From Megaustenia siamemsis (taxonomy: Eukaryota; Mollusca; Gastropoda; Stylommatophora; Ariophantidae), in assembly GCA_032433765.1 (NCBI GenBank), contig JAVIAB010000160.1, positions 38,446,723-38,510,722 of the forward strand: a DNA stretch of 64,000 nucleotides, in the 5' to 3' direction. A program made the position numbers and the translations under genes. Each line of letters starts with the position of its first letter. Position 1 is the stretch's first letter. Under the pieces are notes generated by a model. The model saw nothing but the letters and a program-made list of their open reading frames with translations. It did not search any database and was not told where the DNA came from. This document shows positions 23,110 to 63,400 of the stretch, piece by piece.

Positions 23110-23111
23110 TA

Positions 23112-24048: not shown

Positions 24049-24050
<2 letters not shown>

Positions 24051-24465: not shown

Positions 24466-24865
24466 AATGGCTTATTGACCCTATCAAATGTTCAATTACT
24501 TTGCCGTTATTGTCACAAAAGTATGTTCATTTCAAGCAATGGCTTATTGACCCTATCAAATGTTCAATTACTTTGCTGTTATTGTCACAAAAGTATGTCC
24601 ATTTCAAGCAATGGCTTATTGACCCTATCAAATGTCCAATTACTTTGCCGTTATTGTCACAAAAGTATGTTCATTTCAAGCAATGGCTTATTGACCCTAT
24701 CAAATGTTCAATTACTTTGCCGTTATTGTCACAAAAGTATGTCCATTTCAAGCAATGGCTTATTGACCCTATCAAATGTTCAATTACTTTGCCGTTATTG
24801 TCACAAAAGTATGTCCATTTCAAGCAATGGCTTATTGACCCTATCAAATGTTCAATTACTTTGCA
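24466..24865 (+). repeat. 72-bp minisatellite, about 5.5 copies
   Basis: Unit: AATGTTCAATTACTTTGCCG, TTATTGTCACAAAAGTATGT, CCATTTCAAGCAATGGCTTA, TTGACCCTATCA. Copies are almost identical, differing mainly at CC/TC. The CAATTACTTTG..GTTATTGTC..AAA part resembles the 43/46-bp unit to the left. Confidence 0.9.
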
Positions 24866-25087
24866 AATGTCCTAACGCCGTCTTTTAATGTTTACATCAA
24901 GAACCAATTACACTACATCTGTATATTTATGACATCTAAGATTTCGATATTCAAATTGTGCATCGTCAAAAATAGAAAAAACAAAATAATCCGAGTTAAG
25001 TAGTCTTATTTTCTATATGTTGAAAAATGTATCGTTGTATAATTCTTTAGTAAATATTTTTTTTTAATGTACATACTTGTATGTATA

Positions 25088-25436
25088 TATGGAATTTCTC
25101 AGAAGAATGTTGAAAGTTCCCTGGACAGCTAAAAAGACCAATGAGGAAGTTCTCAAAGAGGCCAACACAAAAAGGGAGCTCTTACAAAACGTATGAAAGA
25201 AGCAATCAACATTTTTCGGGCACATCATGGGAAGAGGAAAGTTGGAATACTTGGTTACAACTGGCAAAATAAAGGAAAGAGAGATCGCGAGCGACAAAGA
25301 GAGAAAATACTGGATAGCTTGGTGTCATGGCATGGAAAACAGTCAACAACAGAACTGATACGATGCACTGTGAATAGAAGATTGTGGAGGGACATGATCA
25401 CCTACGCCAACCGGTATGGCACATGATGATAATGAT
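25088..25436 (+). mobile_element. RTE-A LINE 3' fragment, 5'-truncated
   Basis: Starts abruptly within GGAATTTCTCAGAAGAATG (FLRRML block), continues NEEVLKEANTKRELL, then MGRGKLEYLVTTGKI with a frameshift, and ends at CATGATGATAATGATG. It is the shortest recognisable RTE-A copy here. Confidence 0.78.
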
Positions 25437-26299
25437 GTATGTATATGTTAATATAATCAACATATGTATTTCTGTTGGTCTGAAAATCAGATTAATTCAG
25501 ATGAAAAGATCTTCCAGTTTTTTTGGGGGGTCTTTTTTTTAAAGAGGACGCTACAATTCTTCAATAAAAACGTAAAGATTGATGTTACTTTTGTCGATAA
25601 GTTTAGTTCATATTCTGTAAGAGCAATAGGTCTATAAAATAAAGAAAGTGCTATTTGAAATGGTTTAATCATAAAAGTGTTAAATACAAATAAAATGTAA
25701 ATACAATCTTATCATTAGTTTTATTTCATCTTCATTGTTATTGTATGTATGAAACTTTACTTGTGTTAACACTCAGTATAAAAGCTGAAACAATCTGCAT
25801 CTACGACTGCTGTATATCATTGAACATTACTAAGTCTTTCATCTTCACGTCTACTAATACATTTCCAGTGTTGGATTGTGTATAAAAATGAATGTTTCTG
25901 GCTTTACTTGCCGTTTCAAACATTTAATACTTTTATAGTGTTTTCTTGTTGTTGTTACTCTATCGTGTTGTAGATTTGTTGCCATGTATCTTTATGTGCC
26001 TTATATGTAGTTGAATAACAAGGCATTCTTTTTATGCAAACAACAATTCTAATTATTAGCACAGTGTGTATTTGAAGAGTAGTTGACATATTTTGTTACC
26101 TAGTCTTTTCATGGATTATTATTTGATTTGATTTGAAATTTCTCAGTTTAACATTCAATAGACTTCCCAAGCTTCGCATTAATTAACTTCACTATTACAA
26201 GTAGTTACTTATATAACAAAATGTGCAATATGTAATGTGCTTTGCGATATATATATATATAATTTTTAAAATTTTTTTATTAAAGGCTTCAAAATGTAT
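25437..26299. other. AT-rich; distal part is the 3' flank of peptide gene 1
   Basis: No ORF of interest. From about 26150 it aligns with 39640-39850 (shared TATATAACAAAATG, and AATTAATT near it), so it belongs to the duplicated peptide locus. Confidence 0.5.
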
Positions 26300-26305
26300 T
26301 TTATT
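26276..26305 (-). terminator. Candidate poly(A) signals for peptide gene 1
   Basis: On the minus strand AATAAA occurs at 26300-26305 and again at 26276-26281, about 140-165 bp after the stop codon. This is a plausible 3' UTR length. Confidence 0.45.
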
Positions 26306-26441
26306 TAAAGCGCAGGAAGAATAAGCTATAATTTGAGAGTTTGCATAGATAAAGAAATAGTTTTGTCAAATTTCTTGAATCTTTCTTGCGGTGTCCAACG
26401 ATGATGTCAGAACCTACAAGATTGATTTATCATCTGCTTCT

Positions 26442-26639
26442 TCACGGCATGTCACGTCTGTTCTCATAGCAGTCGCGGAGACACATCTCCAGCTCCCTGC
26501 AGAGGCCTGGCGTATGCTTAGACCTCATTTCTTCCATATCACATTCATGTTCGTCTCTGCAGCGTTGCATGCAACCAGGAAAATCGTTGTACGACAAGGC
26601 CATTACAAGCAGACAGGCGATGATTAGCATCCGCATCAT
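26442..26639 (-). CDS. Secreted six-Cys peptide 1
   Basis: 65 residues. MMRMLIIACLLVMALS is a classical signal peptide, with cleavage likely after Ser16. The mature part, about 49 residues, is acidic and basic with no long hydrophobic stretch. Its six cysteines at 23, 27, 33, 47, 53 and 57 give C-x3-C-x5-C-x13-C-x5-C-x3-C. The spacing is mirror-symmetric, which suggests a disulfide-stapled helical hairpin with nested pairing (inference). The ORF looks complete. Just upstream CTCTTTCAAG precedes GTAACCATCACTATC-ATG, so a 5' UTR splice acceptor is possible. Peptide 2 at 39931 shares the signal peptide, the first three Cys positions, the pre-ATG sequence and part of the 3' UTR. Function is unknown. 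Such small secreted Cys peptides can be antimicrobial, pheromonal or venom-like; nothing here decides. Confidence 0.75.
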   Translation of the reverse strand: MMRMLIIACLLVMALSYNDFPGCMQRCRDEHECDMEEMRSKHTPGLCRELEMCLRDCYENRRDMP

Positions 26640-27060
26640 GATAGTGATGGTTACCTTGAAAGAGAAAAAATAAGAGAAATAAAATAAAGAAGACGGCGGT
26701 TTGTGAACGTGACAACCATGCCGGAAGTCAAGAGAATTTGTGCAACAGAAGGCAAATTACTGAAAACAGATGTTTTCAAACTATACTGTAATACTGCGCG
26801 TATTGTGTTTATCATAAAAAGGACAACATTATAATAGTAATGACTGGAACTAGCAATGGCGTAATGCTCACCATATTACCAGATGATGTCTTTATGGAAC
26901 TGCTTCTCTCGAGGCTGAATCTGTCAATATATGATAGATCCGATGATGCCTGGACTTATCTTCTTTCCCCTGAAATTTTTGTTTTCTGAATTTGTCATCA
27001 GTGCTACCGCGAATTTTGCTGACCCTTATTTTTACATTTGTATTCTCCAAGTGCTATTAT
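26640..27060 (-). promoter_or_regulatory. Upstream region of peptide gene 1, duplicated
   Basis: The first 80 bp upstream align with the region upstream of peptide gene 2. A block at about 26890-27060 (AACTGCTTCTCTCGAGGCTG, AATCTGTCAATAT) aligns with 42200-42420 (CAGCTTCTCTCGTCGCTGAA, TCTGCCAATATTTGAT). It may hold a promoter or 5' exon. No TATA match is obvious here. Confidence 0.45.
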
Positions 27061-28345
27061 CTGACTATATTTGTATTCTCTAAGTGCTACCATCTTACTA
27101 TATTTGTATTCTCTAAGTGCTACTATCTTACTATATTTGTATTCTCCAAGTGCTACTATCTGACTATATTTGTATTCTCTAAGTGGTACTATCTTACTAT
27201 ATTTGTATTCTCCAAGTGCTACTATCTGACTATATTTGTATTCTCTAAGTGCTACTATCTTACTATATTTGTATTCTCTAAGTGCTACTATCTGACTATA
27301 TTTGTATTCTATAAGTGCTACCATCTTACTATATTTGTATTCTCTAAGTGCTACTATCTTACTATATTTGTATTCTCTAAGTGCTACTATCTTACTATAT
27401 TTGTATTCTCTAAATGCTACTATCTGACTATATTTGTATTCTCTAAGTGCTACTATCTTACTATATTTGTATTCTCTAAGTGCTACTATCTTACTATATT
27501 TGTATTCTCTAAGTGCTACTATCTGACTATATTTGTATTCTCTAAGTGCTACTATCTTACTATATTTGTATTCTCTAAGTGCTACTATCTTACTATATTT
27601 GTATTCTCTAAGTGCTACTATCTGACTATATTTGTATTCTCTAAGTGCTACTATCTTACTATATTTGTATTCTCTAAGTGCTACTATCTGACTATATTTG
27701 TATTCTATAAGTGCTACTATCTGACTATATTTGTATTCTCTAAGTACTACTATCTGACTATATTTGTATTCTCTAAGTGCTACTATCTGACTATATTTGT
27801 ATTCTCTAAGTGCTTCTATCTTACTATATTTGTATTCTCCAAGTGCTACTATCTGACTATAATTGTATTCTCCAAGTGCTACTATCTGACTATATTTGTA
27901 TTCTCCAAGTGCTACTATCTGACTATATTTGTATTCTCCAAGTGCTACTATCTGACCATATTTGTATTCTCCAAGTGCTACTATCTGACTATATTTGTAT
28001 TCTCCAAGTGCTACTATCTGACTATATTTGTATTCTCCAAGTGCTACTATCTGACTATAATTGTATTCTCCAAGTGCTACTATCTGACTATATTTGTATT
28101 CTCTAAGTGCTACTATCTGACTATAATTGTATTCTCCAAGTGCTACTATCTGACTATATTTGTATTCTCCAAGTGCTACTATCTGACTATATTGTATTCT
28201 CCAAGTGCTACTATCTGACTATAATTGTATTCTCCAAGTGCTACTATCTGACTATATTTGTATTCTCCAAGTGCTACTATCTGACTATATTTGTATTCTC
28301 CAAGTGCTACTATCTGACCATATATGTATTCTCCAAGTGCTACTA
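27040..28345 (+). repeat. 33-bp minisatellite, about 40 copies
   Basis: Unit TTTGTATTCTCTAAGTGCTA then CTATCTGACTATA. Two diagnostic sites vary: CTCTAAG versus CTCCAAG, and TCTTAC versus TCTGAC. CTCTAAG dominates on the left and CTCCAAG on the right. The unit is a multiple of three, so a 408-codon frame (FVFSKCYYLTI repeated) stays open on the plus strand and shorter ones on the minus strand. Confidence 0.93.
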
Positions 28346-28509
28346 TCTGATGCTAATTTCTTTCGTTGATATGTAAGCTCGTATTTAAGGTTCCTTTCGT
28401 TTAGCCTTTGATTATAATGTCATGAGTTCCAGTCTTGTGACAGCATAATAATGACGTCACATCAAGTTAGTTGTCATCTGGCGCTGCAGCATGTAAGTCA
28501 GCATTTTTT

Positions 28510-29025
28510 GGAAACGGAGAGAAAAAGAGTGAGAGAAAGAGAGAGAGAAAAAAAGAGAAAAAACAGAGAGAGAAAGAGATAAAGAGTGAGAGAAAGAAAG
28601 AGAGAAAGAAAGGGAGAAAGAAAGAGAAAAGTAAGAGAGAAAGAAAGAGAACGAAATATAGAGAAAGAGAGAAAGAAATAGAGACAGAAATAGAGATAGA
28701 AATAGAAATAGAAAGAGAGAGAAAGAGATATAAAGAGAAAGAAAAAGAGAGAAAGCGAGAGAAAGAGAAAATGAAAGAGAGTGTAAGAGTGAGAGAAAGA
28801 GAGAGAAAGAGAGAGAGAGAAAGAGAGAGAGAAAGAGAGAGAAAGAGAGAGAAAGTGAGAGAAATAGAAAGAAAGAGATAGAAGGAGGTAAAAAGAGAGA
28901 GAGGAAGGGAGAGAGAAAGAAAGAGAGAACGACAGAGAAAGAGAAAGAGAGAGATAGAAAGAGAGAGATAGAAAGAGAGAGACAAAGAGAGAGAGAAAGG
29001 GAGACAGAAAAAAGAGAGAGAGTTA
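28510..29025 (+). repeat. GA-rich microsatellite tract
   Basis: (GAGA/GAAA)n polypurine sequence of about 515 bp. Frames on both strands are open through low complexity only. Confidence 0.95.
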
Positions 29026-29044
29026 TTGAGTTATTTGAGGGTCA

Positions 29045-29700
29045 TCATCATTGCACTCCGAACATGTCCATCATAGGTGCTCAGATCCCCTCCTCAGCAA
29101 GCACTGCTGGGTCAAGCGATTGACGACTCCAGTTCTGTGTTGGTTGATAAGTCTTCTTACACGCCCACTAAGTTTCTCATTTCTGGCTGTGCCCATCTTA
29201 ACTCCCATCTCTTTCATCCGAAGAAGTGACGTGGATTTGTGTTTGTCGAAGTCCTGTGCTCTTCCCACATCTCGGAGGGCATTGATGATGTCCCCCCGAT
29301 CCATTGGTTGACCGTCCTCAACGACAGCGCAGCTAGCCAACCTGTCCGCTCTTTCATTTCCTCTTACACCCACATGTCCAGGGACATAGACAAAGGTGAC
29401 CCTATGTATTTTGGATTTCTGCAACGACTCTACCCATTGCATGCGTATAGAGCCCGCCTCCACTTTTTTTATCATGCTCATCGAATCACTCAGTATACAT
29501 GCGTGCATGTAGTCTTGTGACTATAACCATTTGAATGCCTTGGTCACTGCCATCACCTCCATTGTCATGCTACTCGTGGTCATGACGTATGCACCACTGT
29601 CTTCGTAGAATATTCTGCCCGCCGAGCGTGCTATAAATGCTCATTCACTTCTTTGGTGTCGTATTACAGATCCTTAAGTATAGATAACTGCATCTTTCTC
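29045..29700 (-). mobile_element. LINE with RNase H domain, 3' fragment, copy 1
   Basis: Minus strand. The 145-codon frame 29071-29508 has HACILSDSMSMIKKVEAG (third acidic position, LSDS), FVYVPGHVGVRGNERADRLA (last catalytic Asp with the usual GH..V.GNE.AD), and a C-terminal tail LLRMKEMGVKMGTARN, LSGRVRRLINQHRTGV, CLLRRGSEHL. Upstream, other frames hold a TDGSV-like start and an MEVMAV helix. The RNase H type places it with I/Nimb/R1-like LINEs rather than RTE (family knowledge). The copy at 47030(+) is its close relative. Confidence 0.82.
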
Positions 29701-29989
29701 ACCGGTGTTATTGCATATGAGACCATTGATCTCCATATTGACCACGACTGAGTTCTGTTCCCTAATTTTCCTGTCAAATATGACAATACACGAGGATATA
29801 CCCTTGAATGACGTAGACACAGGTATTCACTCCTCGCTAACGTTGATATTGGTAAGCCCACATACCCGTTTGATGACATCTTCTGCTCGGCCCAACCATG
29901 ATTTGAAAGAGAGAATGTTTCGATACTGAGATTGGGTAGTTTCATCCACGGACGATTCTTACGAAGTGTCACTTAATGTGTAGTAAAAG
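29701..29989 (-). mobile_element. Probable upstream part of the same RNase H LINE
   Basis: Minus ORF 29664-29972 (102 codons) leads into the RNase H region with no stop-rich gap, e.g. RKMQLSILKDL. It has no motif I can name with confidence. Confidence 0.35.
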
Positions 29990-30273
29990 TGGTAAATAGC
30001 CCCCGTCACGTCAAGTGGCGTATAGGGAATATGGTGTTAGTGACCATACATTTTACAGACCTTCGGCACATGATTTTTGAGGCAATGTGGTCGGTATTAC
30101 GCCCGTGCCGCTTTACTTTCCCAGAAAAAATCATGTACCCATTAAGGCTGGGTGAACCCGGAAGCTGTCAGTTGGGATCGAACCCTACCTCTTGTCCTTT
30201 GTAGTTCAGTTCACTACCCTACCTCTTGTCCTTTGTAGTTCAGTTCACAAATCAATGTTCTATCGCGGCTCCC
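29990..30273 (-). mobile_element. SINE S1 copy 3 (minus), internal duplication
   Basis: Inverted S1 copy ending GGGAGCCGCGATAG on the minus strand. About 37 bp around CTACCTCTTGTCCTTTGTAG are duplicated in tandem at 30181-30250, between the A and B boxes, so the promoter spacing is disrupted. Confidence 0.82.
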
Positions 30274-30431
30274 GTCACTGGTGTGTGCTTTTATTTATTT
30301 CTCTTATCCTAAATTAATTTTTTTATTGCAATTATTTTTCCAGTCTGAAGTTATTTTGTTTTTCAAACTTCAATTTCATAAAAATCAAAATTTGAAAAAA
30401 AACATTAATCTGTGATTATTGTTATCACACG

Positions 30432-30443
30432 CAGTCCTGTGTT

Positions 30444-30481
<38 letters not shown>

Positions 30482-30503
30482 GGTGTGTGTGTGTGTGTGT
30501 GTG

Positions 30504-30538
<35 letters not shown>
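30432..30538 (+). repeat. (TG)n followed by (GA)n
   Basis: Compound microsatellite: TG repeats at about 30444-30504, then GA repeats to 30538. Confidence 0.95.
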
Positions 30539-30540
<2 letters not shown>

Positions 30541-30606
30541 ATTATCTGCAATTATTTTTATTTGAATATAAGTACAGAAAGTCACATTAGCGTGTACAGG
30601 TATATA

Positions 30607-30872
30607 AAAGTAGTAAAGTAAAAGTAAAGAGCCCCCGTCACGCCAAGTGGCGTATAGGGAATATGGTGTTAGTGGCCATAAATTTTACAGACCTTCGGCA
30701 CATGATTTTGGGGGTAATGTGGTCGGTATTACGTCCGTGCTACTTTACTTTCCCAGAAAAAAATCTGGTACCCATGTAAGGCTGGGTGAACCGGAAACCG
30801 TCGGTTGGGATCGAACCCTACCTCTTGTCCTTTGTAGTCCAGTTCACTAACCACTGAGCTATCGCGGCTCCC
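30607..30872 (-). mobile_element. SINE S1 copy 4 (minus), with target duplication
   Basis: Inverted full-length copy. The A box (CACTGAGCTATCGCGGCTCC read inverted) and B box (GGGATCGAACC) are intact. It is flanked by CAGGTATATA at 30597-30606 and 30879-30888. Confidence 0.87.
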
Positions 30873-31064
30873 GGTGTTCAGGTATATATTCCAATTAAAT
30901 TAGTGATACTGGGAGGTTTTTTATTTTCTTTTGCAATCTAAATTGTGCCAGCTTGCAGCGATGGGTGACCGACGATAATTCTCTTTCGCTCTGACATAGA
31001 AAGTCTATCATGATTTCAAACATCACCTCACAGAACCATCAGTCAACACTAGGGCAAAGAAGGT

Positions 31065-31215
31065 TAGAAGATGATGGAAAGAAATAAAAAAGAAAGTATA
31101 ATAAAACATAAGAAGAAGAGGAAGAGAAAGAAGAACGAGAAGAAGAAGCAAAAGAAGTAAAAGTAGAAGAAGAAAAGATAAGAAGAATAATGAAGATAAA
31201 AGACAAAGCATCTAA
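31065..31215 (+). repeat. GAA-rich tract
   Basis: AGAAGAAG-type simple repeat. The sequences just before (about 30950-31060) and after (GCCACACTTCATTCTGGATT) resemble those around 9669-9760 and 16340-16400, so this may be a degraded dispersed element. Confidence 0.6.
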
Positions 31216-31759
31216 ATGCAGAGAGGATTGCCATTGCCACACTTCATTCTGGATTTCTTTTTCTGCAATTTTTTCTCCTTTCACTCTACACCTCTACTAC
31301 TCTCCTCTTCAGTGAGTGAACAGCAAAGACATCATTCAAGCATAAATACTTTGTGTCATTGCTTACAGCAAGCAGTTTGATATGAATATTTCTGCCCAGC
31401 GCAACCGTTTTCAGCATTATGGTGCGTATTTCTTTTTGCTGTGATTTTTACTTTTAATTGCCAGTTCGTATTTCTTTATTTCAATGTTATAATCAGCATG
31501 AAGCCTGCCTTTCACACAAGTTTCAAGACAAAGTACAGGAAAGTGTGATATAATTTTTAAGAGCGTATAATTTATTACAATTACAAGGAATAAAGCAAAA
31601 AAAGGTTTCATAACAAATAAATAGGACATTTTTTTAGTAAAATTAATATTTGATACACTTTAAAAATGAAAAATGGTTATTTTATGCATCATATAGTAAA
31701 ACATATATTTTTGAAATGGTATGTTACATTATAGTGTATATGTTATGTTGATAATATTC
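31216..31759. other. No gene seen
   Basis: AT-rich with no convincing ORF. Confidence 0.35.
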
Positions 31760-32360
31760 CTACAGACCCTAACTACCTGTGGACATACTACAACCAGTGA
31801 TGGAAACTGTACAACTGAAATAAACAAAAGAATAGGAATGGCAAAAAGTAATTTTAATGTCATGAAAAATATACTAACATCAAAACAAATGACACCAGGG
31901 CTAAAACTAAGAATAGCAAAATTTACATCTTCTCAATATTCCTGTATGGTGCAGAAACATGAAAATTAGACCAGAAAACAGAATAGAAAGTTGAAGCCTT
32001 TGAAATGTGGATTTATAGAAGAATAGGTAGAATTGGATGGAGAGAAAAGAAAACAAACGATGAAATTTTAAAACAACTAAAAATGAAAAGAGAACTACTA
32101 AATACAATTAGAACAAGACAAATGACATTTTTGGGGCACGTTAAAAGACACAACAGCCTAATAAAAGTAATATTGGAAGGGAAAATACAAGGTAAAAGAG
32201 GCAGAGGCAGACCAAGACTAACATGGACGAGTAACATCAAAAGATGGACAAGTCAACCAATGACAATCTACACCATCAAAACAAGAGACAGAGCAGAATG
32301 GCGCTCCATGGTAGCCAACCTTGGATGCGGAGACGGCACTCAATGATGATGATGATGATT
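31760..32360 (+). mobile_element. RTE-B LINE 3' fragment (plus)
   Basis: Contains GHTTTSDGNCTTEINKRIG then MAKSNFNVMKNILTSKQM, and in another frame MWIYRRIGRIGWREKKTNDE, LGHVKRHNSLIKVILEGKIQ, GRPRLTWTSNIKRW, EWRSMVANLGCGDGTQ, then (ATG)n. Several stops lie in the middle. Confidence 0.8.
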
Positions 32361-32559
32361 CCTACAGAACCAAATGCTGGTCATAAATCGATTATTTGAC
32401 TGCGTTTCTATATTCGTTTTTCCTAGATTCTATTTTAAACCCGTGATGGAAACTTCTCATTTGGTAGTTTCTTGAAGTTTCCCTATTGGTCTACCTACTC
32501 TACTTTCACCACCTAGTATCAACATCTGATATGCAAAGTCTTCTTCTGCTTTTCTTCTA

Positions 32560-32660
32560 TCCTTCCTCTATTGCCGTTGGCGTCGAGGGGAGATACAATC
32601 TGCGATTCTTTACTCTTCTGTTGGCCTCTTCTGGTGTTATCCCTCCTAGTGACTCTTCTG
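32560..32660 (-). mobile_element. LINE-D 3' end fragment
   Basis: CGTTGGCGTCGAGGGGAGAT and the following sequence match the reverse of LINE-D's end at 17990-18030. Confidence 0.6.
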
Positions 32661-32689
32661 TATGATCGCGATTGTTTCACCATTATTTT

Positions 32690-32852
32690 GACTGAGCACT
32701 GTTGTGTGTATGTTACATTGTCCTCTGAGTACTGTTGTGTGTATGTTACATTGTCCTCTGAGCACTGTTGTGTGTATGTTACATTGTCCTCTGAGCACTG
32801 TTGTGTGTATGTTACATTGTCCTCTGAGCACTGTTGTGTGCATGTTACATTG
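32690..32852 (+). repeat. 33-bp minisatellite, 5 copies
   Basis: Unit TCTGAGCACTGTTGTGTGTA then TGTTACATTGTCC. Nearly perfect; frames are open because the length is a multiple of three. Confidence 0.92.
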
Positions 32853-33117
32853 TCTTGTGCCGCTGTACTAGTTCTGTCGCAGAGTAACGGCTGTTGTTTA
32901 TGTTACCAGTGCTTGCCCGTGCACTGTGATCACTGTTGTCCGTGACCCGTATGCAAAGTAGTTTTACTTTTTCTGAGTGCACATCAGGCAAAGATCCACC
33001 GTCTTTATATGTATGTATTCAGTCTCTTCGTGCACCATTTGATTACATTTAGTTTTTGACAGTCAGTATTTTAGTTTAAGTATTCGTTTTGAGGTATTCG
33101 TATCCGCAGTGCACAAT
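32853..33117. other. No gene seen
   Basis: Unique-looking sequence between the minisatellite and the RTE-C fragment. Confidence 0.3.
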
Positions 33118-33712
33118 AAAGACAAGTGGAAAAAGACTAACACAGGTAAATGAATTTAAATATATGGGAACAATGTTAACCTCAGATGGTAGATGTACAG
33201 CAGATTGAGATGCAGAATGGCTCAGGCAAAAGCAGCTTTCCAAAAATTGAGGAAGATACTATGCAATCCATTTTAAACAATAGAAACAAGAAAAAGAATT
33301 CTTAAATGTTATGTAGAGCCTGTCTTAACATATGAATGTTAACCATGAACATAGTAGGAAAACAGAAGAAAATCACTGGAGACTGTGAAGATGTGGTCAA
33401 TGTTGAGAATACCATGGACAGCTAAGAAAAGTAATGAAAATGTTATGAAAGAGGCCAAAGCAGAAAGAGAACAAATTTCCAATATTAGGAAGAAACTATA
33501 TATAAGAAAATATATATATATTGTGACAACTGAGAAAGTTGAGGGACGAAGAGATAGACGAAAGCAAAGAGAAAAGATACCAGACAGCTTAAGAGAATGG
33601 CCTGGAAGAAGGTCGACAACGGAAATGATAAATAACTGTCGAGATCGAAAGTTATGGAGAGACATGATCACACACGTCAGCAAACATGGTACTTGGGTAT
33701 GATGATGATGGT
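33118..33712 (+). mobile_element. RTE-C LINE 3' fragment, copy 1
   Basis: Third RTE-like family: ..EFKYMGTMLTSDGRCTAD then frameshifts, KMWSMLRIPWTAKKSNENVM, KEAKAEREQISNIRKK, VEGRRDRRKQREKIPDSLRE, RDRKLWRDMITHVSKHGTW and an ATG tail. A small TATATATA insertion replaces the FFGH block. Confidence 0.75.
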
Positions 33713-33894
33713 TCGTTTTCACGGACGTTCATATCTGTTCCCAGTGTATGCATGAGTTGACTTCGTGCAGCCATTGGTATGTTAGTATAGGTATCTCGCA
33801 GGAATAGGCCAGTCTAGAGTTTATCTTTTCTTCTTTTAAAAAAAATATAACTGTCTTATGTTATTTTTATTTAAAATACTATAACCACCATCTG

Positions 33895-34430
33895 ACGGCT
33901 GTGTTTATATGTTCGGAATTGGAGTCAACAACGATGTTCTAACATCATCAAAGCGCTATGCATTTTAAAAAAAATATGACGATCATCATTTTCAGGAGGA
34001 CGTGAACTTTCGGCCAATATGGTGGATAGGCGGCAGGAACCATTGAAGGCTATGTATGAAAAGTGTTCCTTTTTGCAGTTTCATTATATTCCAAGCCCGG
34101 CTTGTTGCAGGAGCTACTGAGTTAAGTGCTCTGTGCACACCGTGAGCTGTGTGTTTCATCCGTTTTGATCATGTTTCGATATTCCGATTGTTTACGATGA
34201 ATGATAATATCGTATGAACATGAACAGTTGCCTGTGTTCACTTTCTGTGCGGTTTCGCCTTATGTCTTTTGGCGTGTGCTGAGACTGCTATAATGGGGAC
34301 TACTGTTACCTTTATTTGTTTAGGAATTGAGTTAGTAATTCGGATGATTCCCCTGGCACAGGCGGTTGAGCAATTATGTATTTTAATTCGTTTGCAATGA
34401 TACCGTGGCCTTCCATAACTATGACCATAA
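33895..34430 (+). repeat. Unclassified element U1, 3' half, copy 1
   Basis: Aligns with 38200-38742 over its whole length (GTGTTTATATGTTCGG, GATAGGCGGCAGGAACCATT, AGGAGCTACTGAG, CCTTCCATAAC). No ORF is maintained between copies, so I treat it as non-coding. Confidence 0.7.
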
Positions 34431-34439
34431 CCACCAGAG

Positions 34440-34960
34440 AAACTATGTTAAAGGGAACATACAAATAATTGCAATGCTGCGCTGATGCTGGTAGTGAGGA
34501 GCTAGTGGTGGGTGTACTAAACACTCCAAAGTATGGTGACAGCCTTACAAGGATGGAACACAACACAATAATGACGTTTCGGCCTGTGGCCTTCTTCAGA
34601 ATACAAGGACAACGACAACAAACGGTGAAGCACAGTTATCTATAACTACATGTTAGATGATCAAGCGGAGGGCGAGGAAAGTAGGATGTTGAAATAAGAA
34701 AGGAGAGGGAAGAGAGAAATCTATACTACATGAGGAGAGGTAGGATGGGTGTCAAGATATATAAAATAGAAAAAGAGAAAAATATAAAAAAAAGAGAACA
34801 ATGTATCATAAAATGCACGCTTAAAACAGCAAGTCTGTCCTCCGTGCTGGAACACATCAGAATGACTTGGAGTTTTAAGGATGTGTCTATAAAGTAACAC
34901 GTGACTGAAACACGCGAGTTTAGAAGGTCAAGAGGACCTGTGTGTCTACTACACTGTGTG
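34440..34960 (-). mobile_element. Penelope-like terminal region (pLTR-like), fragment
   Basis: Minus-strand sequence containing the hammerhead-like core at 34575-34601. The order and wording (CTGAAGA.. GGCC.. GAAACGTC) match the terminal repeats of Penelope-like elements as I know them. No coding part remains. Confidence 0.5.
34575..34601 (-). ncRNA. Hammerhead-ribozyme-like core, copy A
   Basis: Read on the minus strand: CTGAAGA (fits CUGANGA), A, stem II GGCC / loop ACA / GGCC, then GAAAC and GTC. The conserved core positions are all present. Helix III is minimal and helix I pairs poorly (about half of seven positions), so single-unit cleavage is doubtful. Minimal type I hammerheads are known in Penelope-like elements. 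Confidence 0.5.
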
Positions 34961-34964
34961 TAAA

Positions 34965-35290
34965 TTATGTTAAAGTCAAACATCGAGTTACTTTGTGCTT
35001 GTCCTAGAGAAACGTATTTCAAGTCAAATACTTCATTATTGTGTTCTTATCCTAGAGTACCATGATTATTTCAAAAGCTCATTTCGTTCATTCTTGCCCT
35101 AAAATTGTGGATTTGTCAAATAAATTTTACATAACCTTGCCATTATCAAAAAACTTGATTTGGACATGAAATGTTCAATTACTTTGTCTCATAAAACTAG
35201 GTATATGTCATATGTTTAATTCCTTTGTCATTGTCATAAAAATATATTCTAATAGATGTATCAACAATTAATTTCTCTCTACCTGTTTAT
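34965..35290 (+). repeat. Degenerate minisatellite related to 19.9-23.8 kb
   Basis: Phrases such as GTCAAACATCGAGTTACTTT, GTCAAATACTTCATTATTGT and TTCAATTACTTTGTC recur at intervals of about 45-50 bp with heavy divergence, matching the 46-bp unit at 19932. Confidence 0.55.
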
Positions 35291-35429
35291 AACATTTCAG
35301 TGTCAAGCACTGTCAGATATGACGAATGTATGAGCTAAACTATCTTAATATGCGTATGTTTCTCATTGTATTCTTCTATATTTCTTTTGTAAATATATTG
35401 GACGTTTCATATTTTCCCATTTGCATATG

Positions 35430-35996
35430 TATGTCAGTATGACGGAAGATGTACAAAAGAGGTGAGATGCAGAATGGCTCAGGCAAAAGCAGCTTTCAAA
35501 AAATGAGGAAGTTACTATGCAACATATTTTTGATAATGGAAACAAGAAAAAGAGTTCTTAAATGTTATGTAGAGCCAGTCTTAACATATGGATGCGAATC
35601 ATGGACAATAGGACAACAGACAAGAAAATCACTGGAGTCTGTAGAAATGTGGTTTTACAGAAGAATGTTGAGAATACCATGGACAGCTAAGAAGAATAAT
35701 GAAGATGTTGTGAGAGAGGTCAAAGCAAAAAGAGAACTAATCTCCAATATTAGGAAGAAACAATCATCATTTTTTGGTCATTTAATGAGAAGAGAATAAC
35801 TGGAATATAGTGTAACAAATGGAAAAATTGAGGGACGAAGAGATAGAGGGAAGCAAAGAGAAAAAATAACAGACAGCTTAAGAGAATGGCTTGGCCGAAG
35901 GTCAACAACAGAAATGATAAATAACTGTCGTGATCGAAAGTTGTGGAGAGACATGATCACCTACGCCAGTAGGCCCGGTACTTGATGATGATGGTG
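35430..35996 (+). mobile_element. RTE-C LINE 3' fragment, copy 2
   Basis: Best-preserved RTE-C. The frame 35449-35799 reads YVEPVLTYGCESWTIGQQTR, KSLESVEMWFYRRMLRIPW, KNNEDVVREVKAKRELISNI and SSFFGHLMRRE, then a stop. It continues degraded to CCCGGTACTTGATGATGATG. Confidence 0.8.
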
Positions 35997-36084
35997 ATGA
36001 CAGTATAAACAACATAGCTATTTTTTGTGGTCTGAGAATTAAATCAAGGTTAGTATAAAGATCTTCTAGTTTAAACCAAAAAAA

Positions 36085-36483
36085 TGTTATTACAATCTTT
36101 CAGTCATGCTCTTGCAATCCTTCAATCATGCTATTACAATCCTTCAATCGTGCTATTACAATCTTTCAATCTTGCTATTACAATCCTTTAATCATGCTAT
36201 TACAATCTTTCAATCATGCTATTACAATCCTTCAATCATGTTATTACAATCCTTCAATCATGCCATTACAGTCCTTCAATCATGCTATTACAATCGTTCA
36301 ATTTGCTATTACAATCCTTCAATAATGATATTACAATCTTTCAATCATGCTATTACAATCCTTCAATCACGCTATTACTATATTTCAATCATACTATTAC
36401 AATCTTCAATCATGCTATTACAATCTTTCAATCCTGCTATTACAATCCTTCAATCATGCTGTTACAATATTTCAATAATGCTA

Positions 36484-36485
<2 letters not shown>
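36085..36485 (+). repeat. 22-bp minisatellite, left part
   Basis: Unit CATGCTATTACAATCCTTCA plus AT, about 18 copies. It is interrupted by RTE-B (36486-37497) and resumes at 37498-37590 with the variant CATGCTATTACGACCCTTCA. Confidence 0.9.
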
Positions 36486-36525
<40 letters not shown>

Positions 36526-37497
36526 GAGTGCCCTCTCCGCAACGAAGGTTGGCTACCATGGATCGCCATTCTACTGTGTTTCTTGCTTTGATGGTGCAGG
36601 CTGTCATAGAATGACTTGTCCATCTTTTGATGTTACTCGTCCATGTTAGTCTTGGTCTGCCTCTGCCTCTTTTACCTTGTATTTTTCCTTCCAATATTAC
36701 TTTTAGTAGGCTGTTGTGTCTTTTAACATGCCCCAAAAATGTCATTTGTCTTGTCTTAATTGTATTTAGTAGTTCTCTTTTATTTTCAGTTGTTTTAAAA
36801 CTTCATCGTTTGTTATCTTTTGTTTCCATCCAATTCTACCTATTCTTCTATAAATCCACATTTCAAAGGCTTCAATTTTCTGTTCTGTTTTCTTGTCTAA
36901 TGTCCTTGTTTCTGCACCATGCAGGAATATTGAGAAGATGTAACATTTTGCCATTCTTAGTTTCAGCCCTGTTGATATTTGTTTTGTTGTTAATATATTT
37001 TTCATGGTATTAAAATTACTTTTTGCCATACCTATTCTTTTGTTTATTTCATTTTTGCATTTTCCATCATTGGTTATAGTATATCCCAGGTAGCTGTAGC
37101 TCTGGACTGTCTCCAGATGTATTCCCTCAACTGTGATATTTAATTGTAGGTCTTGAGAATTTTCTTTGTTTATGATAATAGTTTTAGTCTTTTTGATATT
37201 CATTTCTAGTCCATATTTTTTGCTCGTTATGTTTATCACATTAAGCAATTGTTGTCGGTCTTTAGGATTTTCTGCTAGTAGAACTGTATCATCAGCATAT
37301 CTTAGGTTATTGATTATCTTTCCATTAATGTTTAGGCCTGGTATCTCTGAGATGTTTTTAAAGATTTGCTCAGTGTATAGATTGAACAAGCTTGGCGATA
37401 GGATGCATCCTTGTCTTACTCCTTTTCTTATGTACATGGGTGTAGAGTTCTCCTTGTTATATCTTATTATTGCTGTTTGCTCCCAGTACAAATTACA
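36486..37497 (-). mobile_element. RTE-B LINE, 5'-truncated, with RT core
   Basis: Minus-strand insertion into the 22-bp minisatellite. It has the inverted (ATG)n tail (CATCAT repeats) at 36486-36525, and the 5' end is truncated inside the RT domain. It is the only copy here that keeps the RT catalytic region. Confidence 0.9.
36521..37491 (-). pseudogene. RTE-B reverse transcriptase C-terminal half
   Basis: The 241-codon frame (36766-37491) begins inside the RT. RKGVRQGCILSPSLFNLYTE is RT motif 4/B, and NLRYADDTVLLAENPKDRQQ is motif C with the catalytic YADD. SKKYGLEMNIKKTKTIIIN is the following motif, then SYLGYTITNDGKCKNEINKR and the thumb-like MWIYRRIGRIGWKQK. A frameshift near 36750 separates the last part (36521-36745: MTFLGHVKRHNSLLKVILEG, GRPRLTWTSNIKRW, EWRSMVANLRCGEGTR). 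The endonuclease and N-terminal RT are missing through 5' truncation, the usual outcome of LINE insertion. The RT motifs themselves are undamaged, so the insertion is fairly recent. Confidence 0.88.
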
Positions 37498-37590
37498 TAA
37501 TCATGCTATTACGACCCTTCAATCATGCTATTACGACCCTTTAATCATGCTATTACGACCCTTCAATCATGCTATTACAATCCTTCAATC
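37498..37590 (+). repeat. 22-bp minisatellite, right part
   Basis: Four more units (AATCATGCTATTACGACCCT), the other side of the RTE-B insertion. Confidence 0.88.
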
Positions 37591-37656
37591 TTAAACTTCT
37601 TCCACGACGGTTGATACAGTGACAGATAAGATTAATTAAGACTTTAATCCAGAGTG

Positions 37657-38974
37657 AATAACCATGGACAGCTAAGAAGAGTAATGAAAACTTTCTGAAA
37701 GGGGCCAAAGCAAAAAGAGAGCTAATTTCCAATATTAGGAAGAAACAATCATCATTGACTTCCGTTTCAAAATGGTGGAACTTTTCACGTTCTCTCGACC
37801 GCTGCAGACAATGCATCTGGGGTTTGATTAATTTCGGCTCTCTGATTGCAATTTTCTGTGTTGAAATCAAAATGATGTTCTACTTAGCAAATCTGCGCGA
37901 CGAAGTGGACAAATCTGCACCGGCGATGTGCATACAGCAATGTTTCTTTTTGACAAGTCAAGTATTGTAACGGCGACCTTCACCATCTAGTGTTGAGATG
38001 CGGTTTACGTCACATTGAGTGCTATTCAATGGCCGACTTTGGGATTTTGGACGCAAGTTATTTACATGCTGAAACGCATTAATGGATATCTCCGTCAAGT
38101 CGACCGATTTTCATCTTTGGGAATTTGCACCGTGTTTTGTTCGTTGTACGCTAACCGTAGTGTCTGTTGTTTGATGTGTGACGGTGATAATTCGACGACA
38201 AACTGTGTGTTTATATGTTCGGTTGGTGTACTGTCAAGAACGATGTCCTAACATCATCAAGCGCTATACATTTTTTGTTCTCAATATGACGATCATCATT
38301 TTCGGGAGGACGTGAACTTCCATGGTATATGGTGGATAGGCGGCAGGAACCATTGAAGGCTATGTCTGAAGGGTGTTCCTTTGCTGCAGTTTCCTCATAT
38401 TCCAAGTCCGGCTTGTTGCAGGAGCTACTGAGTGAAGTGCTCTGTGCACACTGTGAGCTGTGTGTTTCATCCGTTTTGATCATGTTTCGATGTCCAAATT
38501 GTTTACGATGAATGATGATATCGTATGACAGGGAATAGTTGGCTGTGTTCACTTTCTGCGCGGTTTCGCCTTATGTCTTTTGGCGCGTGCTGAGACTGCT
38601 ACGATGGGGACTACAGTTACCTTTCTTTGTTTGGGAGATGAGTTAGTAATTCGGATGATTCCACTGGTGCGGGCGGTTGAGCAATTATGGATTTTGATTC
38701 GTTTGCAGTGATACCGGGGCCTTCCATAACCAATAACCAATGATCATTTCTGGCCATGTAATGAGAAGAGAACACAGCTGGAATATATTGAACCAACAGG
38801 GAAAATTGAGGGACGAAGAGATAGAGGGAAGCAAAGAGAAAAGATACCAGACAGCTTAAGAGGAATGGCTAGGTAGAAGGTCAACAACAGAAATGATAAA
38901 TAACTGTAGTGATCGAAAGTTGCGGAGAGACATGATCACCTATGCCAGCAGCCTGGTACTTGATGATGATGATG
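37657..38974 (+). mobile_element. RTE-C LINE 3' fragment, copy 3, split by U1
   Basis: The left piece 37657-37756 (ACCATGGACAGCTAAGAAGA ... AGGAAGAAACAATCATCATT) and right piece 38743-38974 (TCTGGCCATGTAATGAGAAG ... GGTACTTGATGATGATGATG) join exactly where copy 2 is continuous. The intervening 986 bp is element U1. Confidence 0.85.
37757..38742 (+). mobile_element. Unclassified element U1, complete copy
   Basis: 986 bp bounded by ATCATT on both sides (37751-37756, 38743-38748), a 6-bp target duplication in RTE-C. It starts GACTTCCGTTTCAAAATGGT; a second copy at 58066 starts GACTTCCG too, which confirms the left end. It ends CCAATAACCAATG. No inverted terminal repeats, no poly-A and no conserved ORF. 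The start resembles the CAAGATGGCGG-type 5' ends of some retroelements (inference). Confidence 0.75.
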
Positions 38975-39216
38975 AATGACGCACTTTCATTTTGGAATAT
39001 TGCAGTTTTTATTGAAATAGTGTTTATATAACAAACATATGATAAACACTTTTAGCATAGGTGTTTTATTTAACGAGTTATATGTTGAGTATGTTCAGAT
39101 TATGAGGTAAAACCTCAGGTTGAGAATAGTTTTCTCTCCAGGTGGGCAACAAATGGTTTTGTTTATTATCGCTGTATGCTTGTCATAGGCTGACCTGTTC
39201 ATCTGTGCAAGATTTT
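38975..39216. other. No gene seen
   Basis: AT-rich sequence between the LINE tail and a tandem triplication. Confidence 0.3.
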
Positions 39217-39565
39217 CATTTAGCGCCGTCTGCGCATCGCAGCTTGGCTACCATGGAGCGTCATTCTGCTCTGTCTCTTGATTTGATGATCCAGGTTGTC
39301 ATAAGTTGACCTGTCCATCTATACAAGATTTTCCTTTTCATTGAGTGCCGTCTCCGCATCGCAGGTTGGCTACCATGGAGCGTCATTCTGCTCTGTCTCT
39401 TGATTTGATGATCCAGGTTGTCATAAGTTGACCTGTCCATCTATACAAGATTTTCCTTTTCATTGAGTGCCGTCTCCGCATCGCAGGTTGGCTACCATGG
39501 AGCGTCATTCTGCTCTGTCTCTTGATTTGATGATCCAGGTTGTCAAAGGTTGACCTGTCCATCTA
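39217..39565 (-). repeat. RTE-B tail triplicated, 122-bp period
   Basis: Three copies of the last 122 bp of RTE-B (GGCTACCATGGAGCGTCATT at 39246, 39368, 39490). They read inverted as ..EWR SMVA.. C-terminus plus tail. This is a short LINE end that became a tandem repeat. Confidence 0.85.
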
Positions 39566-39639
39566 TGCAAGATTAGTTAAAGTCTAGTATTATTTATAGA
39601 TGTTCCTTATTATGTTTCTTTGATGTGGGTTGAAATCCT

Positions 39640-39930
39640 TCAAGTTAATTTTTTATAGCGTTCATTAGCTTCACATTAAATAATTAATTTCATTACTAAA
39701 ATAGTGGTTTATATAACAAAATGCACAACAAGTAATCAGCTTTGCAAAAAGTAAAATAAAAATTAAATGTTTAAAAACATCTGAAATTGAAAGCACAGTG
39801 AGAAATCAGCAATTGTATTAAAGTTTGCATAGATAAAGAAATAGTTTAGTAAAAATTTGCAGATTTTCTGCACATTTCTTGGAAAGCTCTTGCACTGTCC
39901 AATAATGGTGTCAGAAAGTGTTTGTAAGAT
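39640..39930 (-). other. 3' UTR and flank of peptide gene 2
   Basis: Aligns with the flank of peptide gene 1: AAACTATTTCTTTATCTATG and CAAACT (minus strand) are shared, as is TTATATAACAAAATG further out. AATAAA-like signals are less clear than in copy 1. Confidence 0.55.
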
Positions 39931-40137
39931 CTATCGTCTGCTCCATCGATGGCCGCTCCGTCTTTGCTGATAGCATTTCAAGATACATTTCTCTTGCTTC
40001 TTGCAGGCTGACGTTAGTTGAGACATAATCTCCGTGTCGCAGACATGCTTCATTCCGCAGTCATCCACGCAGTCAGTAAAGTCATCGGAAGACACGGCTA
40101 TCACAAGGAGACAGGCGATGATCAGCGTCCGCATCAT
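39931..40137 (-). CDS. Secreted six-Cys peptide 2
   Basis: 68 residues. The signal peptide MMRTLIIACLLVIAVSS is almost that of peptide 1. Six cysteines at 23, 27, 33, 45, 51 and 55 give C-x3-C-x5-C-x11-C-x5-C-x3-C. The first half is acidic (DDFTDC, DDC) and the tail strongly basic (QQRRSGHRWSRR), which may be trimmed at basic pairs. Between the two peptides the cysteines and signal are kept while most mature residues differ. That pattern is typical of fast-evolving secreted peptides. A TATA-like TATATAAG lies at 40264-40271, 127 bp before the ATG. The ORF looks intact. Function is unknown, as for peptide 1. Confidence 0.77.
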   Translation of the reverse strand: MMRTLIIACLLVIAVSSDDFTDCVDDCGMKHVCDTEIMSQLTSACKKQEKCILKCYQQRRSGHRWSRR

Positions 40138-40263
40138 GATAGTGATGATTACCTTTAGAACAGTCAGAGAAACAAAATAAAGAAAGTAGCTTTTGTAAAC
40201 TTGAAATTAAAAGAAGAGGACAGGCTCTGGAAATGAAGTGTTGTAGAGAGATCTGGCGGGTTT

Positions 40264-40271
40264 CTTATATA
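40264..40271 (-). promoter_or_regulatory. TATA-like box for peptide gene 2
   Basis: TATATAAG on the minus strand, 127 bp upstream of the peptide 2 ATG. A transcript starting about 30 bp downstream would have a 5' UTR of about 100 bases. No equivalent is obvious at peptide gene 1. Confidence 0.4.
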
Positions 40272-40509
40272 GATCACATCAACAATAAGGAAGCGAGCAA
40301 GAAAATTCAGCGATCCATGAAAAATCCAGAATATCCATCGATGATTAAAAGAACAAATATTAAAAAGGTATGAACATTTTGCAAGAACTAATGACTATTC
40401 TATAGGGCACAATACCAGGAGAAAGATGACAAGGAAGACAGAGTTATGCTATTGGAAGACAGCGTTAAACGATTGGTAGACAGAGTTACGTGCTGAGAGG
40501 ACAGTGTTA

Positions 40510-40678
40510 CGTGATGACGAAGAGATAGAGGGAAGCAAAGAGAAAAAGTACCAGACAGCTTAAGAGAATGGTTGGCAGAAGGTCAACAACAGAAATGTGA
40601 AATAACTGTCGAGATCGAAAGTTGTGGAGAGACATGATCACCTACGCCAACAGGCCCGGTACTTGATGATGATGATAG
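40510..40678 (+). mobile_element. RTE-C LINE 3' tail, copy 4
   Basis: GACGAAGAGATAGAGGGAAG ... GATCACCTACGCCAACAGGC, CCGGTACTTGATGATGATG. Only the last 170 bp are present; it sits upstream of peptide gene 2. Confidence 0.8.
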
Positions 40679-40771
40679 CATTTGGTGTTTTGACAGACGG
40701 TTGGTAGCAAGCAATCATATCAACACTTCGGTACGGCCCCTTGTGGCCGTAACTGTATCACCTGTGCCTAT

Positions 40772-41095
40772 GTGCTCCCCATTGACTCTATCTTATTCCC
40801 TACTGGACGGTTCGAGATTAAGCATGGCTTCACATGTGTGTCCTGTAAAATCATTTATGCCGTCATATGCCAACGATACCACATGACTTATATTGGCGAG
40901 TCTGGGAGGCGATTAGCAGAAGGTTTTTTTGAAAATCTTCGAGATGTTCAACAGAATACTGGCACTCCCGTGTCTTCCCATTTCAACTCCTCAAACTACA
41001 AGGGCAAAGACGACATCCGTATCACTGGTATTGTCCTTTGTCACTCTGGCACCGCAGTCAGTTTGCTTTGGAGAATCGCCTTATAGTCCAGCTTG
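40772..41095 (+). pseudogene. Penelope-like GIY-YIG endonuclease, copy 2
   Basis: The frame has DSILFPTGRFEIKHGFTCVS, CKIIYAVICQRYHMTYIGES and GRRLAEGFFENLRDVQQNTG, then TPVSSHFNSSNYKGKDDIRI. The I-Y/YIG core and the following Arg-rich helix (GRRL) are present, so this copy is better than the one at 6546 in that helix. The frame breaks after SGTAVSLLWRIAL, where copy 1 reads ALENRLIVKFG. The linker Cys pair lies upstream in another frame. Not functional alone: no RT is attached. Confidence 0.82.
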
Positions 41096-41529
41096 CCTCG
41101 CTGACCCCACGAAGCATGAATGTATCTCACTCGTACACATAGTTTCCCTTTAGTTGCTCCTCCCCTATTTCATAGCCTTCTCTACAGCCCTTGTTTCGGC
41201 ACTTTAGTCTATCCACTATGCCATGCTATTCATAGTTCTCCGCCACTAGTCCCCACTGAGACACTTCGGTGGTTTCCTATACTTCTTGTTTTCTGTTCTA
41301 CTTACCCTTCATATGTTTTTATTGTACCCCACTCTCAGACATCTCACTTTTTCCGCCTTTTGAGTACCTGTTATTCTTCTGTTCAATTCTTTCTCCGTTG
41401 TTTTTGCACACTGACTTCGGTGTGTACCCTTCTGGTTATGTGGGCGTTATGCGCACATTTCTACACATATATGATCGTCCCCGTATGGGTGTGCACATGC
41501 ATTATGTGTTCATATGTATGGGTGTTGAT

Positions 41530-41690
41530 ATATATAAATATATGCATGTATGCATGTATGTGTGTATGTATATATATAAATATATATATATATATGTATT
41601 TGTAGATGTATTTAGGTATGTGCATGTCTGTTTGTACGTGTATATATGTATATACGCATCTGTGTGTGTGTATATATACATGTATGTGTG
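41530..41690 (+). repeat. TATATA/TGTATG low-complexity tract
   Basis: Alternating purine-pyrimidine repeat inside the Penelope-like 3' region. Confidence 0.8.
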
Positions 41691-41993
41691 GGCCCTTTGA
41701 TACTTTTAGACATTATCAGTGTCTTTGCAGTAGACGTAACCTAGACAGCGTTCCCCCCACACGCATATTTTTAGAAGCCTTCACACCGTCTTGACCAGCA
41801 GTGTATAATTACAGCTACACCCGTGTGACGATCTCTTTCCCATTCTGACCACGGTCCACGACACAGGGAAGTCATTTTTCTTATCTTAAACCAGTTTCGA
41901 TTATTTTGTTTTTTGATGTTTCATTACTAGTTAGCTATGTAGGATTAGTTTTATTTACTTACACATCTGTGTGTGCGTGTTGTTTGTTTGTTC

Positions 41994-42022
41994 CTGCTGA
42001 AGGCCTTTTGAGCCGAAACGTC
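41994..42022 (+). ncRNA. Hammerhead-ribozyme-like core, copy B
   Basis: CTGCTGA, A, stem II GGC / loop CTTTTGA / GCC, then GAAAC and GTC. Compared with copy A, the conserved A of CUGA is C, which should abolish cleavage. Flanking bases can form helix I with an internal loop: GTTTG before pairs with CAAAT after, and C-G closes next to the core. This fits a decayed type I hammerhead. Confidence 0.45.
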
Positions 42023-42189
42023 GTTCAAATCTGTGTCGTCTATCAATCACGTAAAGCTTTTAACATACCATTATTTCTATTTTTTTTTTATTCTCCCTCA
42101 CATTTAGCTTTACTGCAGCTTCGCATTTGTATGCATTCATTTGCATTTATTTGCCTTAACCCCATGATAAGTCAGTAGTTTGGTAAAAA

Positions 42190-42420
42190 TATTAGTGTCT
42201 TGTGGTGGATGCTGCTTTGCTGAACAGCTTCTCTCGTCGCTGAATCTGCCAATATTTGATAGACAGATCCATCCACAGAACAAACAAGATGCATTCGTGT
42301 TGCCTGGCCTGTCTCCGTTTTCCTGCGCCTTTTGTCTTCTGAATTTGATATCAGCACTGCCTCGAAAGTTGCTGTGCCATTTTTTTTTTTTTTGTTCTCC
42401 GCGTGCTACGATCAGAAGCC
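42190..42420. repeat. Duplicated upstream block of the peptide locus
   Basis: Aligns with 26890-27060 (CAGCTTCTCTCGTCGCTGAA, TCTGCCAATATTTGATAGAC, ...TCTGAATTTGATATCAGCAC). In copy 1 this block lies 250 bp upstream of peptide gene 1. Here it is about 2 kb upstream of peptide gene 2 because RTE-C and Penelope-like DNA lie between. Confidence 0.65.
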
Positions 42421-42439
42421 AGATTTGCTGTTTCTTTAC

Positions 42440-43567: not shown

Positions 43568-43589
43568 CAGTCCTGAAGTTCACCATACA

Positions 43590-63163: not shown

Positions 63164-63400
63164 CTAACTATTGCAAGAGTAAACACATGTTCTCACTTGG
63201 TTGATACAGTCATCCTCGGGAATGTGTCCTATTATGTTGGAGTGAGGCAAAACTGACCAGTGGTCATTGTCGATGCTTGGACAGTGCGCGTTAAGCCGTA
63301 GACAGTTCTGCTTGCATTCCTCATTGCAAAACACTGAAGACGTAAGAAGTCCAAACATGATAGCGATGAGGAAAGTGAGCGTGCGATGATGACCAACCAT
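63164..63400 (-). CDS. Secreted six-Cys peptide 3
   Basis: 78 residues. MVGHHRTLTFLIAIMFGLLT and SSVFC form a signal peptide, with cleavage likely near 25. Mature cysteines at 29, 33, 40, 65, 72 and 76 give C-x3-C-x6-C-x24-C-x6-C-x3-C. This is the same mirror-symmetric plan as peptides 1 and 2, with one extra residue in each arm and a longer middle loop (contains HWSVLPHSNIIGHIPEDD). Residues outside the cysteines are not alignable with peptides 1 and 2, so shared ancestry is plausible but unproven. The stop (TAG) lies close to the end of the degenerate 36-bp minisatellite. CTTGGAACAG just before the ATG could be a splice acceptor. Function is unknown. The ORF is complete and not repetitive, which argues against chance. 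Confidence 0.65.
   Translation of the reverse strand: MVGHHRTLTFLIAIMFGLLTSSVFCNEECKQNCLRLNAHCPSIDNDHWSVLPHSNIIGHIPEDDCINQVRTCVYSCNS

Follow-up and report, generated by a model that had tools for sequence, protein, structure and literature searches.

In a window of 64,000 nucleotides from the stylommatophoran gastropod Megaustenia siamemsis (assembly GCA_032433765.1, contig JAVIAB010000160.1, positions 38,446,723 to 38,510,722), whose own numbering is used below, two genes, A and B, lie on the minus strand, each encoding a short precursor with a putative signal peptide and a mature part with six cysteines (Cys). The original prediction had described them as paralogues with mirror-symmetric Cys spacing and central loops of 13 versus 11 residues, and both the open reading frames (ORFs) and the motif were confirmed. 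The paralogy was likewise borne out by a protein match of 46.8% identity over 62 columns (tblastn with A as the query, E=2.7e-15) and by DNA homology at 67% identity over 621 columns. The two genes comprise the following features:

26442..26639, minus strand: coding exon of gene A, 65 amino acids, putative signal peptide plus six-Cys mature peptide (ORF list, motif scan, tblastn)
26592..26639, minus strand: putative signal-peptide region of A, residues 1-16, with the h-region LIIACLLVMAL (hydropathy; predicted cleavage after Ser16 by the -3/-1 rule)
26469..26573, minus strand: Cys core of A, C-x3-C-x5-C-x13-C-x5-C-x3-C (motif scan)
26454..26459, minus strand: Arg-Arg of A after C6-Y-x-x, a candidate dibasic cleavage site with a counterpart in B (A/B alignment)
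26655..26656, minus strand: candidate 3' splice site of A, with a pyrimidine tract and AAG ahead of GTAACCATCACTATC-ATG
39931..40137, minus strand: coding exon of gene B, 68 amino acids, putative signal peptide plus six-Cys mature peptide (ORF list, motif scan, tblastn)
40090..40137, minus strand: putative signal-peptide region of B, residues 1-16, with the h-region LIIACLLVIAV (hydropathy; predicted cleavage)
39973..40071, minus strand: Cys core of B, C-x3-C-x5-C-x11-C-x5-C-x3-C (motif scan)
39958..39963, minus strand: Arg-Arg of B after C6-Y-x-x, a candidate dibasic cleavage site (A/B alignment)
40153..40154, minus strand: putative 3' splice site of B

Elsewhere in the 64 kb, a six-frame scan recovered the shared motif only in the translation of a CVCVCV microsatellite near 9986-10080. 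The h-regions have a mean hydropathy of 3.31 (A) and 3.58 (B) and A-x-S precedes the presumed signal cut, so that both precursors carry the hydrophobic N-terminal signal and the small residues at -3/-1 of a generic secreted peptide. In both, C1-C2 and C5-C6 are C-x3-C, a twin CX3C spacing combined with twin CX9C arms (C23/C33 and C47/C57 in A; C23/C33 and C45/C55 in B). Eight residues follow the last Cys in A and 13 in B, and the alignment shows Cys6-Tyr-x-x-Arg-Arg to be retained in both paralogues. At both starts a pyrimidine-rich tract and AAG are followed by GTAAYCATCACTATC-ATG, with 14 of the 15 nt after the AAG identical; this arrangement may represent a 3' splice site ahead of a single coding exon, a reading limited by AAG being a weak acceptor. 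The gap of 13.3 kb between the genes makes up the bulk of the interval covered by the original prediction. Antisense and alternative-frame ORFs overlap gene A.

Judged from DNA alignment, A and B are duplicates of one unit as regards the gene block itself, and a second block further upstream likely belongs to the same unit:

26119..26712, minus strand: A copy of the duplicated gene block, comprising 73 nt before the ATG, the coding sequence and 323 nt after the stop (DNA alignment)
39616..40204, minus strand: B copy of the duplicated gene block, reaching 315 nt after the stop
26882..27073, minus strand: upstream block of A, a candidate promoter or noncoding first exon (match to the B upstream block only)
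42208..42427, minus strand: upstream block of B, 2.07 kb before the B ATG (match to the A upstream block)

The upstream blocks are 65% identical over 223 columns (E=2.8e-17) and within the window match only each other, with the exception that the first 41 bases of the A block also match the adjacent 33-bp minisatellite. In ungapped columns they agree at 145 of 189 positions and the gene flanks at 274 of 375; the two proportions do not differ (p=0.36), and such equal divergence is expected from one duplication. The gene block and the upstream block of B are separated by about 2 kb, and a repeat lying between them recurs at 6286-6949; GT donor-like sites at the end of the upstream-block homology are present in A, not in B. 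A repeat element as the thing uniting A and B was rejected: the gene block was matched once between the arms 18000-33000 and 33001-48400, tblastn returned no third copy in the window and the upstream block occurs only beside A and B. Nor is an mRNA-derived retrocopy favoured, the homology extending beyond the AATAAA-like sites of A and the upstream block being common to both. The 33-bp minisatellite (27036-28350, 40 copies) abuts the A upstream block, and by eye the B upstream block begins with one diverged copy of the same 33-bp unit; it may be that a segment originally present once in the duplicated unit was later amplified into the array.

An origin of the two ORFs by chance was rejected by their homology, by shuffling and by neutral simulation. 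A Met-led ORF with the motif (CVCVC runs excluded) was found in none of 60 order-3 Markov shuffles of the window. When neutral divergence to a distance of 0.32 was simulated without indels, the frame and the Cys spacing were kept in 46/20000 runs for A and 18/20000 for B; with indels at assumed rates of 0.02 and 0.035 per site these figures fell to 1/20000 and 0/20000, respectively, at either rate. Selection has retained the reading frame and the six Cys in both genes. The predicted combination of a conserved signal and a divergent mature part also held: in the DNA alignment nucleotide identity is 85% in the signal, 73% in the non-coding flank and 61% in the mature part (about 57-61% across alignments), the mature part differing from the flank at p=0.0097. 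In a codon alignment identity is 51% (58/114) for the non-Cys mature codons versus 94% (17/18) for the Cys codons, with p=1.9e-5 and p=0.052, respectively, against the flank; this alignment has less freedom in gap placement than the DNA alignment, and its smaller p is less conservative. Among the 186 segments of 120 ungapped columns lying entirely in the 3' non-coding side the lowest identity was 0.68, whereas the lowest of all 120-column segments, at 0.60, falls mainly in the mature region, extending up to 29 nt beyond the A stop. For this one pair, the acceleration is a property of the entire mature segment.

These data bear directly on the idea that the ORFs are untranscribed or decaying pseudogene relics without function, to which we give a slim chance. 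It would suit a neighbourhood rich in tandem repeats and transposon fragments, and also the outcome of a search of 5.8 billion proteins, including named animal proteins, in which neither B nor the A+B alignment found a homologue, the search requiring three shared 5-residue words. A fast-evolving 65-residue peptide can easily miss such words. Against a relic stand the intact frame, signal and six Cys in both copies, even though 27% of the ungapped flank sites differ between them and the flanks also carry indels, as well as a ratio of nonsynonymous to synonymous substitution rates (dN/dS) of 0.16-0.21 in the signal.

With regard to the fold, one arm carries its Cys at positions 0, 4 and 10 and the other arm at 10, 4 and 0, each trio fitting into an arc of 120 degrees. 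Their heights match those needed for nested staples across an antiparallel hairpin, in which the pairing would be 1-6, 2-5 and 3-4. Comparable spacings are found in proteins of the mitochondrial intermembrane space that have no secretory signal, namely CHCH proteins (twin CX9C) and small Tim proteins (twin CX3C). That A and B belong to either is very improbable. They do have the two C-x9-C arms and the C-x3-C spacing, both together and in register for the hairpin, and small Tim chains appear among the weak structural neighbours of the models (among the matches listed); however, their N-termini are strongly hydrophobic, and the Pfam search listed no CHCH or small-Tim domain for the full proteins (E up to 1) or the mature parts (E up to 10, HMMER filters dropping most matches above 0.1).

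A probable third member, C, lies near the end of the window on the same strand as A and B:

63164..63400, minus strand: probable third member C, 78 amino acids, putative signal peptide plus C-x3-C-x6-C-x24-C-x6-C-x3-C (ORF scan, motif)
63173..63316, minus strand: Cys core of C, 48 residues (motif scan)

Its spacing is again mirror-symmetric, with x10 on both arms, and the protein terminates two residues past the last Cys; a signal cut after Cys25 would leave exactly six Cys, otherwise there are seven. An ORF filter fixed before C turned up, which required a start resembling a signal and five or more Cys after it and excluded CVCVC and low-complexity sequences, returned four candidates: A, B, C and an ORF that lies mostly antisense to a reverse transcriptase. 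A relaxed motif is present three times in the window among ORFs of fewer than 600 residues (A, B and C) and in none of 100 shuffles, a result that is partly post hoc, the motif having been set after C was found. Comparison of C with A and B gave no DNA similarity and no significant protein similarity, and its probable homology to them is suggested by architecture, not proven. Downstream of C is a 36-bp minisatellite (62513-62857) that translates as KTCDYSSNS, similar to the RTCVYSCNS at the end of C (tblastn E 6.1); it looks as if it had grown from the 3' end of C, a resemblance that may be due to chance.

We consider it probable that A, B and, with less certainty, C are clustered members of one family of secreted helical-hairpin peptides, stapled by disulfides, that would serve as diversifying ligands outside the cell. 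A unit of upstream block, single coding exon and 3' flank would have been duplicated to give A and B, after which selection would have held the frame, the six Cys and the signal while the remainder of the mature part diverged faster than the adjacent non-coding DNA, as seen in the one pair. To judge by its N-terminus, the precursor would enter the secretory pathway and be cut after about residue 16; nested staples would then tie two antiparallel helices together, and a dibasic cut at the conserved Arg-Arg would release an acidic peptide, 44 residues long for A and 42 for B. This peptide might act outside the cell on a receptor or channel as a ligand or effector of diversifying sequence.

Several results weigh against this reconstruction. 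The higher conservation of the signal relative to the flank falls short of significance (p=0.078). The dN/dS of the pair, a comparison suggested along with the original prediction, is below 1 throughout, with values of 0.16-0.21 for the 16 signal codons and 0.41-0.50 for the mature codons; dS of the latter is elevated as well (1.15; bootstrap P(dN>dS)=0.065), and formal positive selection on the amino acids of A and B is unsupported. Because of these values, the description of the peptides as rapidly evolving rests on the divergence of the mature part relative to the flank. Gene conversion of the flanks and signal would produce an identical divergence picture. The structural models are helical but of low confidence, which leaves the hairpin weaker than originally stated: that of B has two helices, the first including part of the signal, that of A has three segments after the signal, and neither allows a disulfide to be read.

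The charge of the products helps to separate possible functions. Cut at Arg-Arg, A would have 44 residues, a charge of -5 and an isoelectric point (pI) of 4.74, and B 42 residues, a charge of -3 and a pI of 4.65; uncut, A would carry -4 (pI 4.97) and B +2 (pI 8.27). Because the Arg-Arg-cut peptides are acidic, we slightly favour a signalling or pheromone-like ligand over a cationic antimicrobial. An antimicrobial function, one of the options originally named, with a mode of action as in plant alpha-hairpinins, is accordingly assigned a low probability; the pI of about 4.7 speaks against it, and uncut B would fit it better. Hairpinin-type entries occur among the weak structural neighbours of the A model (among the matches listed), VBP-8 being an alpha-hairpinin-type peptide. 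Passages of one account describe alpha-hairpinins such as nigellin-1.1 as two antiparallel helices with a loop, sometimes with only the Cys conserved, and give their motifs as CX3C-X4-20-CX3C without Cys in the loop (4C) and CX3CX3C-X4-20-CX3CX3C (6C) (PMC11591084). A and B share with them the small size and a CX3C on each arm and, if the proposed hairpin holds, the helix-loop-helix idea (also from those passages of PMC11591084); neither conforms to the 4C or 6C motif, the inner Cys being three residues in for alpha-hairpinins, five for A and B and six for C, there is no sequence match, and the comparison is of plant peptides with an animal-type genome.

A more specific version of the signalling role, to which we allow a modest chance, is a reproductive or waterborne pheromone family working like Aplysia attractin, a small six-Cys peptide. 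Attractin has nested disulfide pairing and a helical hairpin, and its Cys spacing differs from that of A and B. None of A, B and C matches any Pfam family above the cut-off, and Pfam should contain an attractin family. The likeness lies in general form: attractin is a peptide of 58 residues with three intrachain disulfides, present once per precursor, according to part of PMC3484142. In the same part, the Sepia officinalis sex pheromones SP-alpha/beta are secreted molluscan precursors with dibasic processing and disulfides, as predicted for A and B, but at 248-252 amino acids with several peptides they are unlike A and B (PMC3484142).

A small chance goes to a family of secreted toxins from venom or saliva that would use the CS-alpha-alpha helical hairpin, as do scorpion kappa-KTx and conotoxin vil14a, and whose mature part would diversify against prey channels. 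Conotoxin superfamilies have a conserved signal and Cys frame. Sections of one paper describe cone-snail toxin genes with a higher divergence of the mature exon and flanks rich in transposable elements, features seen also in A and B (PMC10561478); the parallel is apparently one of pattern, not of membership. The same sections give three exons as the usual number for conotoxin genes of Conus betulinus (PMC10561478), whereas A and B have signal and mature part in a single coding exon, show nothing recognisable as a propeptide ahead of the Cys core, have no homologue found, and would be acidic if cut at Arg-Arg. The CS-alpha-alpha scaffold serves venom peptides of several animal groups, and its animal members (kappa-KTx, conotoxin vil14a, Cerebratulus B-IV, acrorhagin I) have two helices and 2-4 disulfides, in the portion of PMC11722136 that treats them. 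Cerebratulus B-IV and acrorhagin I have four disulfides, in contrast to the six Cys of A and B.

Searches for relatives returned little. Below the Pfam cut-off, A gave PAN_3 (E 0.63 and 0.49) and B gave Ibs_toxin (E 0.61), and C gave no match. No PDB sequence matched A, B or C, and an A+B profile reached six PDB chains, none with an E below 0.65 and with a casein signal peptide ranking first. Foldseek with the A and B models found no PDB match at E 0.001 or better, and no attractin, CHCH or kappa-KTx entry was among the re-aligned structural matches listed. Four pattern matches of B to IMG/VR viral contigs were not confirmed, and Rfam and tRNA searches of the window yielded nothing useful. The claim that no named family has exactly this spacing was upheld, in that a literature search on the literal A/B spacing produced no such animal family among the matches listed.

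Most likely, A, B and C are a variant of an already known stapled helical-hairpin scaffold. The disulfide-stapled helical hairpin is known from scorpions, cone snails, marine worms, sea anemones and plants, as stated in part of PMC11722136. We more tentatively entertain, at somewhat less than even chances, an undescribed animal family whose hairpin arms would combine CX3C with CX9C (or CX10C) staples into three nested disulfides and tolerate near-free replacement of most other mature residues, the cluster serving as a scaffold for fast-evolving extracellular ligands. If expressed, the peptides would add a three-staple version to the disulfide-stapled helical hairpins and provide ligand design with a compact framework that tolerates substitutions. 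The A/B pair also constitutes a case of a mature coding segment more diverged than its own flanks, with the Cys fixed.

The surroundings contain many minisatellites and transposon fragments (reverse transcriptase, hAT dimerisation region, Tc5/DDE_1 transposase, RNase H). Between A and B, a reverse transcriptase fragment (RVT_1; 36769-37500, minus strand) was scored against 7997 entries of the 5.8-billion-protein set, of which 7606 matched at E 1e-5 or better; its best relative was 68% identical among the matches listed, and the 120 matches listed include the sea slugs Elysia and Plakobranchus (three) and insects (three) at 42-47% identity. A transposase in two overlapping ORFs (21237-22822, plus strand), with Tc5 and CENP-B DNA-binding domains followed by DDE_1, appears to us Tigger-like. 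Two adjoining arrays of a 438-bp unit occupy 11523-14792, and their Tandem Repeats Finder consensus strings look reverse-complementary by eye; no in-register palindrome was found at the junction of the two. Transposase-like ORFs flank them at 10751-11296 (sub-threshold DUF4371) and 14751-15590 (hAT dimerisation region), as if the arrays had been inserted in a hAT element. Finally, a 7-kb satellite array at 48419-55417 consists of about 248 copies of a 28-bp unit, with 83% matches and a GC content of about 0.28.

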